Source: Candidatus Blochmannia sp. SNP
Lineage (GTDB): Bacteria > Pseudomonadota > Gammaproteobacteria > Enterobacterales > Enterobacteriaceae
Length of the DNA: 64,000 nucleotides
Direction of reading: 5' to 3'
Assembly: GCF_036549215.1 (NCBI RefSeq)
Contig: NZ_CP144371.1
Span: 310,001 to 374,000 of the forward strand
Below the pieces are notes generated by a model that searched no databases, was not told the DNA's origin, and was given only the letters and a program-made list of their open reading frames with translations. Both the position numbers and the translations under genes were made by a program. Within the stretch, counting starts at the first letter, position 1. Every line of letters begins with the position of its first letter. This document shows, piece by piece, positions 43,712-50,838 of the stretch.

Positions 43712-44368
43712 CTATATGTCATATTTTATTTGTTGACTACTATTATGATTTCGTGTTTTTAATTCTTGAATAATTTCATTAAAAGTTATTGATTTACATT
43801 GCAACAAGACTAGTAGATGATAAATTAGATCTGATGCTTCGTTAATTAGTTCTTTCGTGTTGCAATCAGCAGAAATCGCTGCAAGTGCAGTCTCTAAACC
43901 TTCTTCTCCAACTTTTTGAGCAATACGTTTAATACCACTAGTATATAAACGAGATGTATAAGATGAATTATTAGAATGGGATAGCATATTTTTTTTTGTA
44001 GATATAATGTTTTCCAGTTGGTAAAGAAAACTTAAATCTGCTATCCCAGGATGGAAGCAACTACTAGTGTTGTTGTGACAAGTAGGTCCGTGAGGTAAAA
44101 CAAAAATTAATAACGTGTCATGATCACAATCTGGATGCCAATTGATTAATTTTAATGTGTTTCCAGATATTTCTCCTTTAGTCCATAATTTATTTTTTTT
44201 GCGTGAAAAAAAAGTAACATGCTTAGTTTGTTCTGTCTTTATCATCGATTCTTTATTCATATATCCTAGCATTAATACTTCTCCTGATCTAGCGTGTTGT
44301 ACAATAGCGGGTATTAAACCGTGATTTTTAGTCCAATTTAATTGTTGATGTTTATTTTTAATTAGCAT
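43712..44368 (-). CDS. hisI: phosphoribosyl-AMP cyclohydrolase / phosphoribosyl-ATP pyrophosphatase
   Basis: This is a bifunctional HisIE protein catalysing the second and third steps of histidine synthesis. The N-terminal cyclohydrolase has its metal-binding PDCDHDTLL and the Cys pair in [12 protein letters not shown]. The C-terminal pyrophosphatase helix bundle has [14 protein letters not shown] and [14 protein letters not shown]. It has 218 residues (E. coli 203). It is the last gene of the operon and overlaps hisF by 7 bases. The extra residues are around the linker and the C-terminus. Confidence 0.95.
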
Positions 44369-45138
44369 AATCTAATTTGTATTCCTTCTTTAGATAAGAA
44401 TTGTTTTAATTTATGAATATCAATAATTTTTTTATGAAAAACTGAAGCTGCTAATGCGCCATCTACATCAGCGTCACGAAAAGCTTCTAAAAAATGCTGA
44501 TAAGTACCAGCTCCACCGGAAGCTATAAGCGGCACTTTGCAATGTTTTCTAATGTGTTTTAATTGATTTAAATCATAACCATTTTTCATGCCGTCCTGAT
44601 TCATCATATTTAATACTATTTCTCCGGCACCATATTCTTGTACTTTTTTAACCCAATCTAATGTTTTCCATGTTGTAGTTTTTGTGCGATAACTATCTCC
44701 GGTATAGCATCGTACTTGATATATTTTTTTTTCAGGATTATGCCAAGTGTCAATACTAACTACAATACATTGTGTACCTAAATGATCAGCTAATTTTTGG
44801 ATTAGCGTTGGATTTATTAAAGCAGGGGAATTAATTGAAATCTTATCAGCTCCGGATGCAAGAATCTGTTTAGCCTGTTTTATTGTACTGATTCCTCCAG
44901 CAACACAGAATGGAATGTTTATTATTTCTGCAATCCGGGAAATCCATTTCTTGTCTACTACTTGATTATTGGGTGATGCCGTAATATCGTAGAACACTAG
45001 TTCATCAGCTCCTTCTTTTTCGTAACGATTTGCTAAATCTAATATATCTCCTACAATTTTGTGATGTTTAAATTGTACCCCTTTTATTACTTTATTATTA
45101 GCTACATCAAGACAAGGAATTATTCGTTTTGCCAACAT
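44362..45138 (-). CDS. hisF: imidazole glycerol phosphate synthase subunit HisF
   Basis: HisF is the (beta/alpha)8 cyclase subunit that uses ammonia from HisH to make imidazole glycerol phosphate and AICAR. It has 258 residues, the E. coli length. The catalytic Asp11 is in IIPCLDV and Asp130 in VVSIDTW. The phosphate-binding glycine turns GGIST and ASGGAG are intact. It overlaps hisA by 19 bases. Its partner HisH is frameshifted, so HisF function at low ammonia depends on HisH rescue. Confidence 0.97.
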
Positions 45139-45860
45139 GATATTGCCTCAGCAACAGTAAATTTATTTTCTAAAAAAGCACGACCAATAATGATTGATTT
45201 GACTCCAGCACAACGTAACTTGGAGATTTCCGTTAGCTTATAAACACCTCCAGATGATTGGAAAAATATTTTTGGCCAAGAACGACATATAGATTGATAT
45301 AAAGATATATTACTACCTAATAAAGTTCCATCTTTAGAAATATCTGTACAAAGAACATGTTTTAATCCTATAGTATAATATTCTTCTATTATTTGCTCTA
45401 ATTTCAAATTAGTTTCTTTTTTCCAACCGTAAATAGCTATTTTTCGATCTTTTGTAGAAGAAATGCGTATATCTACTGCTAAAACTAAATGATTTGGATC
45501 AAAATATTCAAACCATTTTCTTACCATTTCTGGCTTTGTAACCGCTACAGAACCGAATACTATACGTGTTGCTCCTGCTTTTAAGAGAAATTCTATATCT
45601 GTAGTGTTACGTATACCTCCTCCTATTTGTATCTTCGATAAAGGAGTAGCTTCTCTTATTAATTGACTAATTAATGAACTTTGTTTTTTTGATGGATTCT
45701 GTGCGCCAGTTAAATCAACTAAATGTATCATTTTTGCTCCTTGGCATATATATTGTCTTAATAATGATACAGGGTTTCCATAACTAGTTTCCATATGATA
45801 AGATCCCTGATATAGCCTGACTATTTTTCCGTTAATAATATCTAGTGCGGGAATAATCAC
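45120..45860 (-). CDS. hisA: HisA, ProFAR isomerase
   Basis: HisA isomerises N'-5'-phosphoribosylformimino-AICAR ribonucleotide in the fourth histidine step. It has 246 residues (E. coli 245), a (beta/alpha)8 barrel homologous to HisF. The catalytic Asp is in PALDIING and the second Asp in [10 protein letters not shown]. Phosphate-binding GGGIRN and SSGGV are intact. It begins 3 bases after the hisH stop, which implies coupled translation. Confidence 0.96.
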
Positions 45861-45863
45861 AAA

Positions 45864-46453
45864 TTAAATCTCCAAAAAATTTTTTACTAATTGTTGTCCA
45901 GGTATACCTGATTTTTCAGGGTGAAACTGAACTCCAAAAAAATTATTATATTCTATGACTGAACTAAATGATTGGCCGTAATTTGTTTCAGCAATGGTTA
46001 TATGACATATTTCTATTAAATAACTATGTGCAAAATAAAAATAGTCATTTCTTTTTATACCATCAAATAAAGAATTTTTTTTAGGAACAGTAATAGTATT
46101 CCATCCCATATGTGGTAGTGGAAAACCATAGTATTTCATGCGTCTAATAGGTACATTAATAATTTTTAAGGTGTTGATGCCATTATTTTCGTCACTATGG
46201 GTACCGAATAACTGCATCCCTAAACAAATGCCTAATATTGGTTTAGTACAATTTTGTATTAACGTAACTAGATTTTTTTTTTTAATTGCTTCATCGCGGC
46301 TGCGGCGGTACCAACTCCTGGTAAAAACAGTTTATCTGCTCGGGATATAATATCAACTCTATCACTAATTATTGGATTATGCCCTAATTTATGCAACATG
46401 GTTTTTACAGAAAATAAATTAGAACAATTGGTGTTTATAATAACTATATTCAT
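45864..46453 (-). CDS. hisH: imidazole glycerol phosphate synthase subunit HisH, one-base frameshift at an A11 run
   Basis: HisH is the glutaminase that feeds ammonia to HisF. The first 60 codons encode [12 protein letters not shown] and then [19 protein letters not shown], ending at a stop just after eleven A (plus-strand T at 46273-46283). The correct continuation [19 protein letters not shown] is in the next frame. Adding one A (or deleting two) gives one 196-residue protein, exactly the E. coli length. The catalytic Cys (GICLG) and the His-Glu pair (QFHPEKSG) all lie after the run, so no internally started product could work. Flanking his genes are intact and overlapping, which favours rescue by slippage over decay. 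Confidence 0.9.
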
Positions 46454-47526
46454 AGCAATGTTCCTTTAGAGCTTGGTATATTATTATTATTATTATCTAT
46501 ATAAATAGCTTGGCGCAATGCTCGACCAAAAGATTTGAATAAACTTTCTGCTTTATGGTGGTCATTATCCCCGATTGCTTGTAAATGTAAAGCACAGTTC
46601 ATTTTTGAAGATAATGAACGGAAAAAATGTTCTATCATTTCAGTGCTGAGATCTCCTATTTTTTGAAAATTGTATTTAGCTTGATAGTGAAAGTATGTAC
46701 GTCCAGAAAGATCTAATATACATTGCGCGATACTTTCATCCATAGGTAAGGTGAATCCAAATCTTCTAATACCACATTTTTTATTTAGTGCTTCACTTAA
46801 AGCCTCTCCTAATGTTAAAGCAGTATCTTCAACAGTATGATGGTCGTCTATATATAAATCTCCTTTTGCTATAATATTCATACGTAATCCAGCATGAATA
46901 GCTATTTGCTGTAACATATGATTAAAAAAATTAATTCCAGTATTAATATAACTTTTATCGCTTTGATCTAACCATATTTTTATATCTATATTAGTTTCTT
47001 CAGTGGTTCGATAAATATGTGCTGATCTGTAATGTTGCATTAAATAGTTTTTAATTTTTTTCCAACCAAAATTAATGTGATGGTACCGTATTCCTTGAAT
47101 ACCCATATTGGTTGCTAAGATCATATCAGTATCTCGGTCTCCAATAACATAACTATTAAATTTATTTAATTTATTATCGGTTAACCAAGAATTTACTAAA
47201 GCAGTTTTTGGTTTTCGACAATGACATTGTTCTTCAGGAAAATGAGGACAAATTAATATTTGATTAAACTTAATATCTTGAGATTGAAATATTCGAATCA
47301 TCAGGTAATGCAGCTCATCAAATTTTTCTTTGGGAAATGAAATACTTCCTAGTCCATTTTGATTAGTAACTATAACAAATTCAAAACCTATATTTTTTAG
47401 CGCTATAAGAGCAGGAATAACGTGGGGTTCTAATGAGAACTTATCTAAAGAATCAACTTGAAAATTGTCTTTTGGTTCATTAATTAGAGTTCCATCCCGA
47501 TCTATAAATAAAATTTTATGACACAT
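46450..47526 (-). CDS. hisB: histidinol-phosphatase / imidazoleglycerol-phosphate dehydratase
   Basis: HisB is bifunctional in enterobacteria, covering steps six and eight. The N-terminal HAD phosphatase has DRDGTLINE (nucleophile Asp) and a zinc site with the [14 protein letters not shown] cysteines. The C-terminal dehydratase has the metal-binding [15 protein letters not shown] and [12 protein letters not shown] histidines, with a second set NDHHKAES. It has 358 residues (E. coli 355). A (ATT)n repeat near the 3' end encodes a run of four Asn. It overlaps hisC by 11 bases and hisH by 4. Confidence 0.96.
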
Positions 47527-48622
47527 GAGTGCTCCTATATTTATTTACGTAGGTGGATGATGAAACGCGTAGTTTTTTTAAGACAGAAATCACTCGTTTA
47601 CATTCATTAAGCGTACCAATAGTGATTCGTGAGCAATTAATTAATCCTAGTTGTTTACTTTGATCTCTTAAAACTATACCTTGATTTAATAGTGCATTAA
47701 ACACTTGATATTTTGGATTAAATCTAACTAATACATAATTAGCATTACTATTAAACACTTTTTGGACACAAGAGCATTGTTTTAAACCCGTAATTAATAT
47801 GTCTCGGTTTGTATTAATTATAGCTATTCTGTTTTTAGTATATTGTATGTTTATTGGGGTTAAAGCTTGTTCTGCGATGTCAATTACTGGAATGGACAAT
47901 GGATATGGTGCTATAACTTTTTCTAACAATTTAATAATTTCTGGATTAGCTAAAGTAAAACCGCAACGTATTCCTGCTAGTGCAAAAGCCTTGGATAAAG
48001 TTCTTAAAATAACCAAATGCGGATACGTGGATAACCAGCGCACTAAACTTGCATCAGGACAAAAGTCAATATATGCTTCATCAGTTATTAATAGCGCTCG
48101 ATTTTGGATAATATTTAACAATTTTTTTAAACTATTTAAATGAATAATATTACCAGTAGGATTATTTGGATTACAAATATAAATTAATTTAACATCATTT
48201 AATTGTGACTTAATAGATACTAAATCAAGTTGCCAGTTTTTCTTTTTCGGTATGATCCGATAATTAATTCCTAAAATTTCTGCAGTGGTTTTGTACATAC
48301 CATATGTTGGAGGGCAAAATATTATAACGTCTTTCCCAGGGTTACAAAATACTTTCATTAATAACTCAATACTTTCATCGGCCCCTCTGGATACTAAAAT
48401 TTGATCAGGTCGTACTCCAGCGTAGTAAGCATATTTGTTAATTATTTCTTGTGGTTGGCACATAGGGTATCTGTGAATTTTTTTACAACGTAATTGATAA
48501 TCGGGGGCGATCGGAAATTCATTGGCGTTAAGCCATATGTTACCTGAATGTGTTAATTTTCTGGCAGATTGATAAGGTTTTAGAGTTAATACATTATTCC
48601 TGGCTAAGTCACGAATGTTCAT
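47516..48622 (-). CDS. hisC: histidinol-phosphate aminotransferase
   Basis: HisC is the PLP-dependent transaminase of step seven. It has 368 residues (E. coli 356). The PLP lysine lies in [15 protein letters not shown], the substrate loop is [10 protein letters not shown], and the conserved Asp/Tyr are in ITDEAYIDF. It overlaps hisD by 14 bases and hisB by 11. The C-terminus has about a dozen residues more than E. coli, of uncertain relevance. Confidence 0.96.
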
Positions 48623-49934
48623 TTTGTTCCTTGATATGATTGATGCGATATATTACAGCATATTCATGAGCTTTTAATTGTTCAATTTGTGTTAATGTTT
48701 TGATTGTTGATGATAATTTTAAGAGTCCATTTTGGGTTAATTGTTGTACCGATATTCTTTTTTGAAAATCTACAACCCCTAAACCAGATGTGGTAATTGC
48801 ACGTCCGTATGTAGGTAATACATGATTCGGCCCGCTTGCATAGTCTCCAGCAACCTCTGGAGACCAATTGCCCAGAAATATTGACCCGGCATTAATGACG
48901 TGATTTAAATAATCTTGGGCATTTTCAACGTGAATGATTAAGTGTTCTGGAGCGTAACTATTACTTATAGAAAAACATTCCATTAAATTATCAGTAATGA
49001 TTATGCAGCCATTAATTAATGAATCTTTAATTATCTTTTTACGTGGTAGTATTTGTAATTGTTTATGTAGTTCTTGTTTTGTTTGCTCTGCAATGTGTAT
49101 ACTGGGAGTGGTTAGTATTATATGCGAATCAGGCCCATGTTCTGCCTGTGCTAAAAGATCTGCTGCGATAAAAATAGGATTAGCTGTATTATCTGCAATA
49201 ATTAATACTTCGGAAGGGCCAGCCAACATATCGATAGCTGTTCCATTTGGTGCAAAATTAATTTGACGTTTTGCTTCGGTAACCCAAGCATTACCTGGTC
49301 CAAATATTTTATCTACTTTTGGAACAGATTCAGTACCAAATCCCATAGCAGCTATAGCTTGGCTTCCTCCTATTTGATAGATCTCATTGATTCCACAAAG
49401 TTGTGCAGTATATGTAATTATATCGGGCACCGGAGGAGGAGAACATAATATAACGCGTTTACATCGAGCAATATGAGCTGGAATGCCCAACATCATCACT
49501 GTTGATAGCAATGGTGCAGTGCCTCCTGGAATATATAGTCCGACAATGTTTAATGGTCGAATAATTTGGCGACAGTATACTTCGGGAGAAGTTTCTAAAT
49601 TTATTTCTGAAGGATATTGTTCTTGATGAAATCGTGTAATATTTGTTATTGCAACGTGTATTGCTCTTTTTATTGTATTAGATAGATCATTACCTGAGTT
49701 TATAATAATTTCAGGTGGAATCTTTAATTGTTTAGTTTGTACGTTATCGAAATATAGATTAAATTTAAATAAAGCACGATCTCCTTCATTATGAACTTGA
49801 TCCAGGATGTTTTTAACATTTGTACTGATATCCTTTGAATTATTGTCTATTGGACGGATAAGTAATCTCTTTCGTTCAGATTTAGAACAACAGTTCCAAT
49901 AAATAATAGATATAGGATGTTCATAAGAACTCAT
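48609..49934 (-). CDS. hisD: histidinol dehydrogenase
   Basis: HisD oxidises histidinol to histidine in the last two steps using NAD and zinc. It has 441 residues (E. coli 434). The signature region contains GPSEVLIIAD, LLAQAEHGPDSHIILTT with the zinc-ligating Gln and His, and YAPEHLIIH with the catalytic Glu-His. AGDYASGPNHVLPTYGRA is intact. It starts 4 bases after the hisG stop and overlaps hisC. Confidence 0.97.
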   Translation of the reverse strand: MSSYEHPISIIYWNCCSKSERKRLLIRPIDNNSKDISTNVKNILDQVHNEGDRALFKFNLYFDNVQTKQLKIPPEIIINSGNDLSNTIKRAIHVAITNITRFHQEQYPSEINLETSPEVYCRQIIRPLNIVGLYIPGGTAPLLSTVMMLGIPAHIARCKRVILCSPPPVPDIITYTAQLCGINEIYQIGGSQAIAAMGFGTESVPKVDKIFGPGNAWVTEAKRQINFAPNGTAIDMLAGPSEVLIIADNTANPIFIAADLLAQAEHGPDSHIILTTPSIHIAEQTKQELHKQLQILPRKKIIKDSLINGCIIITDNLMECFSISNSYAPEHLIIHVENAQDYLNHVINAGSIFLGNWSPEVAGDYASGPNHVLPTYGRAITTSGLGVVDFQKRISVQQLTQNGLLKLSSTIKTLTQIEQLKAHEYAVIYRINHIKEQNEHS

Positions 49935-49938
49935 AATA

Positions 49939-50838
49939 TTATTCCATCATTTTTTCTATTGGTAATACTAAAATAGAACTGGCTCCAAGATTTTTTAAGT
50001 TTTCCATTGTTTCCCAAAATAATGTTTCATTGCTTACCATATATATTGCTACACGATGTTGATTTCCTGCTAATGGTAATACTGTTGGACTTTCTGCTCC
50101 AGGTAGTAAATTAATAATTTTTTCTAGTTGTTCAGTAGGAGCATGCAACATGATATATTTAGAGCCTCTAGCTTGTATAACTCCTTGTATCCGAATCATT
50201 AATTTATTTATTAATGATTGTTTTATGTTTGACAATTTTCCAGATCTTTGAATAAGACATGCTCTAGATCGATAAATTACTTCTACTTCATGTAATCCGT
50301 TAGCTTCTAATGTGGCTCCAGTAGAAACAAGATCGCAAATTGCGTCTGCTAGTCCAACTCGTGGCGCTACTTCTACTGAACCGTTTAGCAAACAAGATTT
50401 AAAATTGATACCCAATTTATCTAAATACTGTTTTAGTAGATGCGGATATGAAGTTGCAATTCGTTTTCCTTGTAAACATTTTGGTCCATTCCATGGTTCA
50501 TCTATGGGTAAAGCCATGGATAGTCTACAATCTCCAAAATCTAATCGACGTAACATAATATAACAAGGATTATCTCCTTGTGATCGTCTTGACAACAATG
50601 CTTCTTCTAATACGTTTTCTCCGATAATTCCTAAATCTACAATACCATCCATCACTAAACCAGGAATGTCGTCATCTCGTACTCTCATGATATCGATAGC
50701 CATATTTTCTGCGAACGCTAGTAGGCGTTGCTGTTGTAAATTAATTTTAATGCCACATTGTTCAAGAAGTTGTTGAGATTCTTTGCTTAATCTTCCTGAT
50801 TTTTGCATCGCTATTCGTAATCGTGATCTATCCAACAT
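49939..50838 (-). CDS. hisG: ATP phosphoribosyltransferase (long form)
   Basis: HisG condenses ATP and PRPP in the first, committed step and is feedback-inhibited by histidine. The 299 residues equal the E. coli length, so the C-terminal ACT-like regulatory domain of the long form is kept and no HisZ is needed. The PRPP-binding segment [14 protein letters not shown] is present. AAGG precedes the ATG. It is the first gene of the complete hisGDCBHAFI operon, in the same order as E. coli. No histidine-codon leader peptide is visible upstream. Confidence 0.96.

Follow-up and report, generated by a model that had tools for sequence, protein, structure and literature searches.

Rescue of poly(A) frameshifts by RNA polymerase slippage is described for Buchnera and Blochmannia in four papers (PMC5009743, PMC3017870, PMC4389277, and PMC4972996), which cite Tamas et al. 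2008 PNAS and Wernegreen et al. 2010 MBE. Homopolymer frameshifts in dnaX, dnaG, ytfM, erfK, and other genes of B. vafer, B. floridanus, and B. pennsylvanicus were counted as intact genes in PMC3017870, some being found in only one of the three genomes and those of erfK and ytfM being independent or reverted. According to a 2016 review (PMC5009743), slippage corrects 12-50% of transcripts at such tracts, a histidine biosynthesis gene from an ant endosymbiont being among the examples.

We analyzed a window of 64,000 nucleotides (positions 310,001 to 374,000 of contig NZ_CP144371.1) from Candidatus Blochmannia sp. SNP, in which the original prediction had placed a hisH gene broken by a single base in a run of eleven adenines and flanked by seven intact his genes. 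The run was found as announced, as T11 on the plus strand at 46273-46283, with hisH split into two frames there, and the seven other his genes proved to be open and named by NCBIfam. The features of the locus are the following:

43712..44368, minus strand: hisIE, intact
44362..45138, minus strand: hisF, intact, encoding the partner subunit of HisH; comparison gene
45120..45860, minus strand: hisA, intact; comparison gene
45864..46271, minus strand: downstream-frame continuation of hisH, comprising 135 codons and a stop and carrying the catalytic Cys, His, and Glu; over the TIGR01855 cut-off alone
45870..45873, minus strand: GGAG, Shine-Dalgarno-like site for hisA, lying within the 3' end of hisH
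46268..46453, minus strand: zero-frame open reading frame of hisH, 61 amino acids (HisH residues 1-60 plus Ile)
46273..46283, minus strand: A11 tract (T11 on the plus strand) at which the hisH frame is lost
46450..47526, minus strand: hisB, intact; comparison gene
47516..48622, minus strand: hisC, intact
48609..49934, minus strand: hisD, intact
49939..50838, minus strand: hisG, intact

Read from the ATG at 46453, the zero frame of hisH runs TTA AAA AAA AAA ATC TAG across the break, so that the A11 extends from the third base of codon 57 (TTA) to the first base of codon 61 and the zero frame stops with TAG at codon 62 (46268-46270). The downstream frame contains no internal stop in its 135 codons. 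Restoring the frame needs a shift of +1 (or -2), and one extra A does give 56+5+135 = 196 residues, the length of E. coli HisH. Lying inside an A/T tract of at least 9, the break is a homopolymer frameshift.

The identity of the gene was established from its profile and its catalytic Cys-His-Glu triad, which mark it as HisH, the glutaminase subunit of imidazole glycerol phosphate synthase. Searched separately, the two pieces matched positions 1-54 and 66-197 of TIGR01855 (198 positions), the N piece with 46.8 bits and the C piece with 146 bits against a cut-off of 105.4; the C piece also aligned to structures 4gud and 1gpw and the N piece to 4gud, a solved HisH structure. The catalytic residues, C77/H178/E180 in E. 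coli numbering, are found as the Cys of GICLG and the His and Glu of FHPEKS; they all lie downstream of A11, as had been proposed, and are retained in the aligned C part of all 14 genomes of the genus. Among the other seven his genes, six scored over an NCBIfam cut-off and hisA fell 0.45 bits under its own (228.5 versus 228.95).

The distribution of the break was examined in 38 genomes, 14 of them from the genus Blochmannia (Blochmanniella), including this genome (G000) and relatives taken as B. pennsylvanicus (G006), B. floridanus (G011), B. vafer (G003), B. turneri (G009), and B. obliquus (G012). hisH was found in two pieces in 10 of the 14 and whole in four (G003, G009, G011, and G012). In nine of the ten split genomes the N match to the profile ends at 59, and that of the remaining genome, G001, extends to profile position 78 through stops; the C match starts at 53-61. 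The sequence TT-A11-T at the break is identical in all ten. Since this genome (783,877 bases) holds only six A/T runs of at least 11 and the same break with the same A11 recurs in 10 of 14 genus genomes, the break is neither chance nor a one-off error.

In a tree of hisB, hisA, and hisF, the ten frameshifted genomes formed one clade (support 88/83), which was recovered with an SH-aLRT of 100 in a tree of 40 window genes. The latter took in the hisH C open reading frame, with 3 of the 45 window open reading frames left unaligned, and gave the same clade without hisH. G001 is the deepest member of the clade and sits on a long branch, as do G009 and G012, and base make-up is uneven, which calls for caution with the trees; placing G001 with G003 and G011, or outside the other nine plus G003 and G011, was nevertheless rejected (p-AU 7e-36 and 3e-8). 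The split or whole state of hisH takes one change on the tree. Because the ten split genomes form a single clade, the break most simply appears to have arisen once and to be old. The clade is not a shallow one, its inner tree length being 0.96 substitutions per coding site, and the G001 and window C pieces share 67.6% of their residues. The frameshift has therefore been retained over evolutionary time, in 10 of 14 genomes and one clade.

A 2025 paper on BSEQ, the Blochmanniella of Camponotus vicinus (probably the same genome), calls hisH a pseudogene and cites ammonia-dependent histidine synthesis (PMC12779916), in which case HisF would draw on free ammonia, released by the breakdown of urea, to make imidazole glycerol phosphate. 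The split open reading frame agrees with this, but the substitution pattern does not. Fitting GY+F3X4 codon models to the ten frameshifted genomes, we obtained a dN/dS of 0.102 (N piece), 0.099 (C piece), and 0.104 (both together), compared with 0.137 for hisA, 0.083 for hisB, and 0.063 for hisF in the same genomes. For the joined pieces, dN/dS = 1 was rejected (2dlnL 360, with kappa fixed at its free estimate), showing purifying selection after the break. In the four genomes with intact hisH, where long branches make the values less sure, dN/dS was 0.061 for hisH, 0.049 for hisA, 0.044 for hisB, and 0.063 for hisF. Because hisA and hisB are also lower in the intact genomes (hisF is not), the codon models do not clearly point to a relaxation peculiar to hisH in the frameshifted ones.

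Moreover, neither piece carries a further stop in any of the ten frameshifted genomes, so that the gene is otherwise intact. When the C piece was simulated under neutrality along the tree of this clade, a mean of 9.86 of 10 tips had acquired a stop, and none of 2000 runs stayed free of stops; the C-piece identity between G000 and G001 is 0.676, compared with a neutral maximum of 0.52, and the branch lengths used were taken from coding sites and hence are short for neutral change. The relaxed selection and further lesions that define a pseudogene were thus not found in hisH. Erosion would be expected in a gene that had been dead for so long, and the purifying selection on both pieces, the catalytic residues kept in ten of ten genomes, and the identical tract in ten of ten all argue against decay. 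The pseudogene reading therefore appears very unlikely, and neither the label nor the free-ammonia corollary of PMC12779916 is supported by the sequence.

Conservation of both pieces would also be seen if the two open reading frames were translated separately into a two-part enzyme. However, in the window the C piece has no ATG, GTG, or TTG before the ATG of codon 80 (open reading frame 45864-46217), past the nucleophile Cys, which makes such an enzyme scarcely credible. Given selection on both pieces and a C piece with no common start codon before codon 80, the two pieces of hisH must be joined.

We then asked whether the tract itself is held, using a table of the 40 alignments (39 plus hisH), out of 42 window-region genes, that contain all ten genomes. 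Forty A/T tracts are 9 or longer in one or more of the ten, only that of hisH reaches 11, and three have an identical length in all ten, namely, the hisH tract and two tracts of 9. A census of runs of at least 11 in the 14 genus genomes counted 91, of which 72 are exactly 11; the longest A runs are two of A16, at G001:C1:96994-97009 and G004:C1:285156-285171. When shared long tracts were matched by their distance from hisH along the collinear genomes, only two sites besides hisH were common to most of the ten, in pyk and in an Omp85/POTRA gene, each with at least 11 in eight of the ten genomes. The second of these is located in this genome as follows:

G000:C1:33965-33975 (L125:1466-1476): long A tract of the Omp85/POTRA gene

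The in-frame pyk tract measures 8, 10, 11 (seven genomes), and 12 in the ten genomes, and the Omp85/POTRA tract 8, 10, 11 (three genomes), and 12 (five genomes). Two of the ten, G002 and G005, have a split Omp85/POTRA gene, as does G003; in this genome the gene is undivided. Tract length was left unmeasured in the orthologues of pyk in G012 and of the Omp85 gene in G009, G011, and G012, all outside the ten. By parsimony, the number of length changes within the ten genomes is at least 3 for pyk, at least 4 for Omp85/POTRA, and 0 for hisH, and the chance of zero changes in hisH at the comparator rate is about 0.02-0.05, from only two comparator tracts. The four silent sites of the hisH tract (TTA and three AAA) are unchanged in ten of ten genomes, which is weakly unusual, with a chance (38 genes) of 0.036, or 0.067 when TTA/TTG leucines alone are used. 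Spacer runs of at least 9 were considered as a neutral yardstick and, besides hisH, offered too few cases, three in four close genomes (all variable) and one in three close genomes (unchanged). The tract-length and silent-site tests overlap, and the case they make for conservation of the hisH tract is suggestive, not strong. They agree with the title that Wernegreen et al. gave to their 2010 paper in MBE.

The same comparison bears on the quality of the assemblies. Homopolymers are error-prone, and an assembly or base-calling error, or mixed tract lengths among genome copies, could in principle split the gene. Yet ten assemblies agree on A11 while the comparator tracts differ among those same assemblies, pyk is unbroken in all 13 genomes with a match and the Omp85 gene in 8 of the ten, and coverage for BSEQ is stated as >5,000x in PMC12779916, so that an artifact at hisH is extremely improbable. 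An apparent frameshift in a 919-amino-acid gene of G010 was rejected, its site being an artificial join of contig ends.

The inactivated-gene list for BSEQ in the same paper names hisH, lptG, rluD, and ybiS (PMC12779916), and the state of these genes here fits the window being most probably BSEQ. We found lptG in two pieces here, with an A10 tract at the break (G000:C1:92131-92140; L184:1508-1517); it is whole in the other nine hisH-frameshifted genomes, and in G009 a stop and a second fragment appear close to its C end. The lptG break thus looks like a young frameshift, in contrast to the apparently old one of hisH. The two pieces of a split RluA-family gene, presumably rluD, join at an A12 (G000:C1:690677-690688), which is among the six long A runs of this genome. 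The YkuD (ybiS) match here (G000:C1:425810-426073) starts at profile position 51; of the 12 genus genomes with a match, 11 have only a partial best match and G003 a nearly whole one, and the other two genomes have none.

Taken together, these results make it very probable that hisH is a working gene with an old inherited A11 frameshift, rescued by RNA polymerase slippage. RNA polymerase would slip on the A11, with an RNA:DNA hybrid that would stay all-A after realignment; a fraction of the transcripts would gain a frame-restoring length and yield full-length HisH, and translation of the remaining ones would terminate at codon 62. We infer a single origin, a restoring step that is transcriptional rather than ribosomal, and a corrected fraction of transcripts. 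The proposal that hisH is expressed through slippage is in this way strongly, if indirectly, supported by purifying selection upstream and downstream of the break in ten genomes, a single clade, an untouched A11, and a published review. The histidine gene of that review (PMC5009743) should be hisH, since G006, taken as B. pennsylvanicus, has a split hisH but single, unbroken matches for the other his genes. Among the papers examined on Blochmannia, hisH, histidine, and slippage, none names hisH as slipping; PMC9251289 mentions neither hisH nor a frameshift, and PMC2990333 gave no match. The source for slippage in the histidine gene of the ant endosymbiont is reportedly the 2008 article by Tamas and coworkers.

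A11 and tracts like it are reported to slip, and in lacZ mutants with A7-A11 the efficiency of insertion was no less than double that of deletion (PMC6260861). For the E. coli polymerase on A11 in vitro, the same paper gives deletion as predominant, so that the reported direction of slipping differs between set-ups. Predominant deletion would not give the +1 that hisH needs, and this counts against slippage.

An identical product would result from ribosomal -1 frameshifting, instead of or alongside RNA polymerase slippage, since A11 contains A AAA AAA slippery heptamers and the zero-frame stop at codon 62 is present in ten of ten genomes. The usual helpers of such an event, however, were not seen in the few genomes examined. 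Downstream folds were not strong in the three of the ten genomes folded, with z of -0.22 (G000), 0.79 (G006), and 1.59 (G001), and inspection by eye of this genome placed an AGGAG 31 nt upstream of the run, with no nearer Shine-Dalgarno-like site. Furthermore, a heptamer alone would not require all eleven A's, though the silent-site test is a weak one. RNA polymerase slippage is therefore the better explanation and ribosomal shifting an unlikely one, with a mix of both possible.

That the corrected fraction is regulated is unsupported, and that slippage frequency sets HisH supply and through it histidine output, as the original prediction had it, has no support either way. A stronger version, which we regard as doubtful, is that selection holds the frameshift as a fixed-ratio dimmer, keeping HisH at a set fraction of hisGDCB and disfavoring in-frame revertants; Rho-dependent polarity over about 400 untranslated bases would then also lower hisA-hisF-hisIE. 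The tract unreverted in ten genomes, the presence of Rho, and the 3-nt spacing to hisA are consistent with a dimmer without showing an advantage. hisA starts 3 nt past the hisH stop in 12 of 14 genus genomes, and this genome encodes Rho, so that stops at codon 62 could lower hisA, hisF, and hisIE as well. The GGAG found ahead of hisA in 13 of the 14 suggests that hisA can initiate alone.

With rescue by RNA polymerase slippage as the preferred reading, a gene for essential-amino-acid supply that was annotated as lost is almost certainly still functioning, and the ammonia-driven histidine synthesis deduced from its 'loss' does not follow. In G011, taken as B. floridanus, the hisH tract is likewise an A11, but it comes after TTG and is in frame, and slippage on this in-frame tract (codons 57-61) should ruin a share of transcripts. 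The tract thus offers a natural contrast, in frame in G011 and out of frame in ten others, and because its length is the same in both frames, one RNA-seq comparison could measure both slippage loss and rescue. Slippage rescue of hisH is of a kind already known and apparently concerns the same gene and frameshift as were studied in B. pennsylvanicus; what is added here is the distribution over ten genomes with most simply a single origin, the test of selection against the pseudogene label, and the comparison of tracts.

E. coli dnaX is expressed through programmed -1 ribosomal frameshifting, with a Shine-Dalgarno-like site at a short distance upstream. hisH resembles it in having an A-rich slippery sequence closely followed by a stop, but showed no close upstream Shine-Dalgarno-like site in this genome and no strong downstream fold in the three genomes folded. 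The poly(A) cases of Buchnera and Blochmannia are closer: as in hisH, a single indel lies in a long A tract of a gene that is otherwise intact, found across species, and under purifying selection, and we see no basic difference between them. The frameshifts of dnaX, dnaG, ytfM, and erfK in Blochmannia likewise share both the genus and the type of lesion with hisH, which differs from them in being, most simply, one old event retained in ten genomes.
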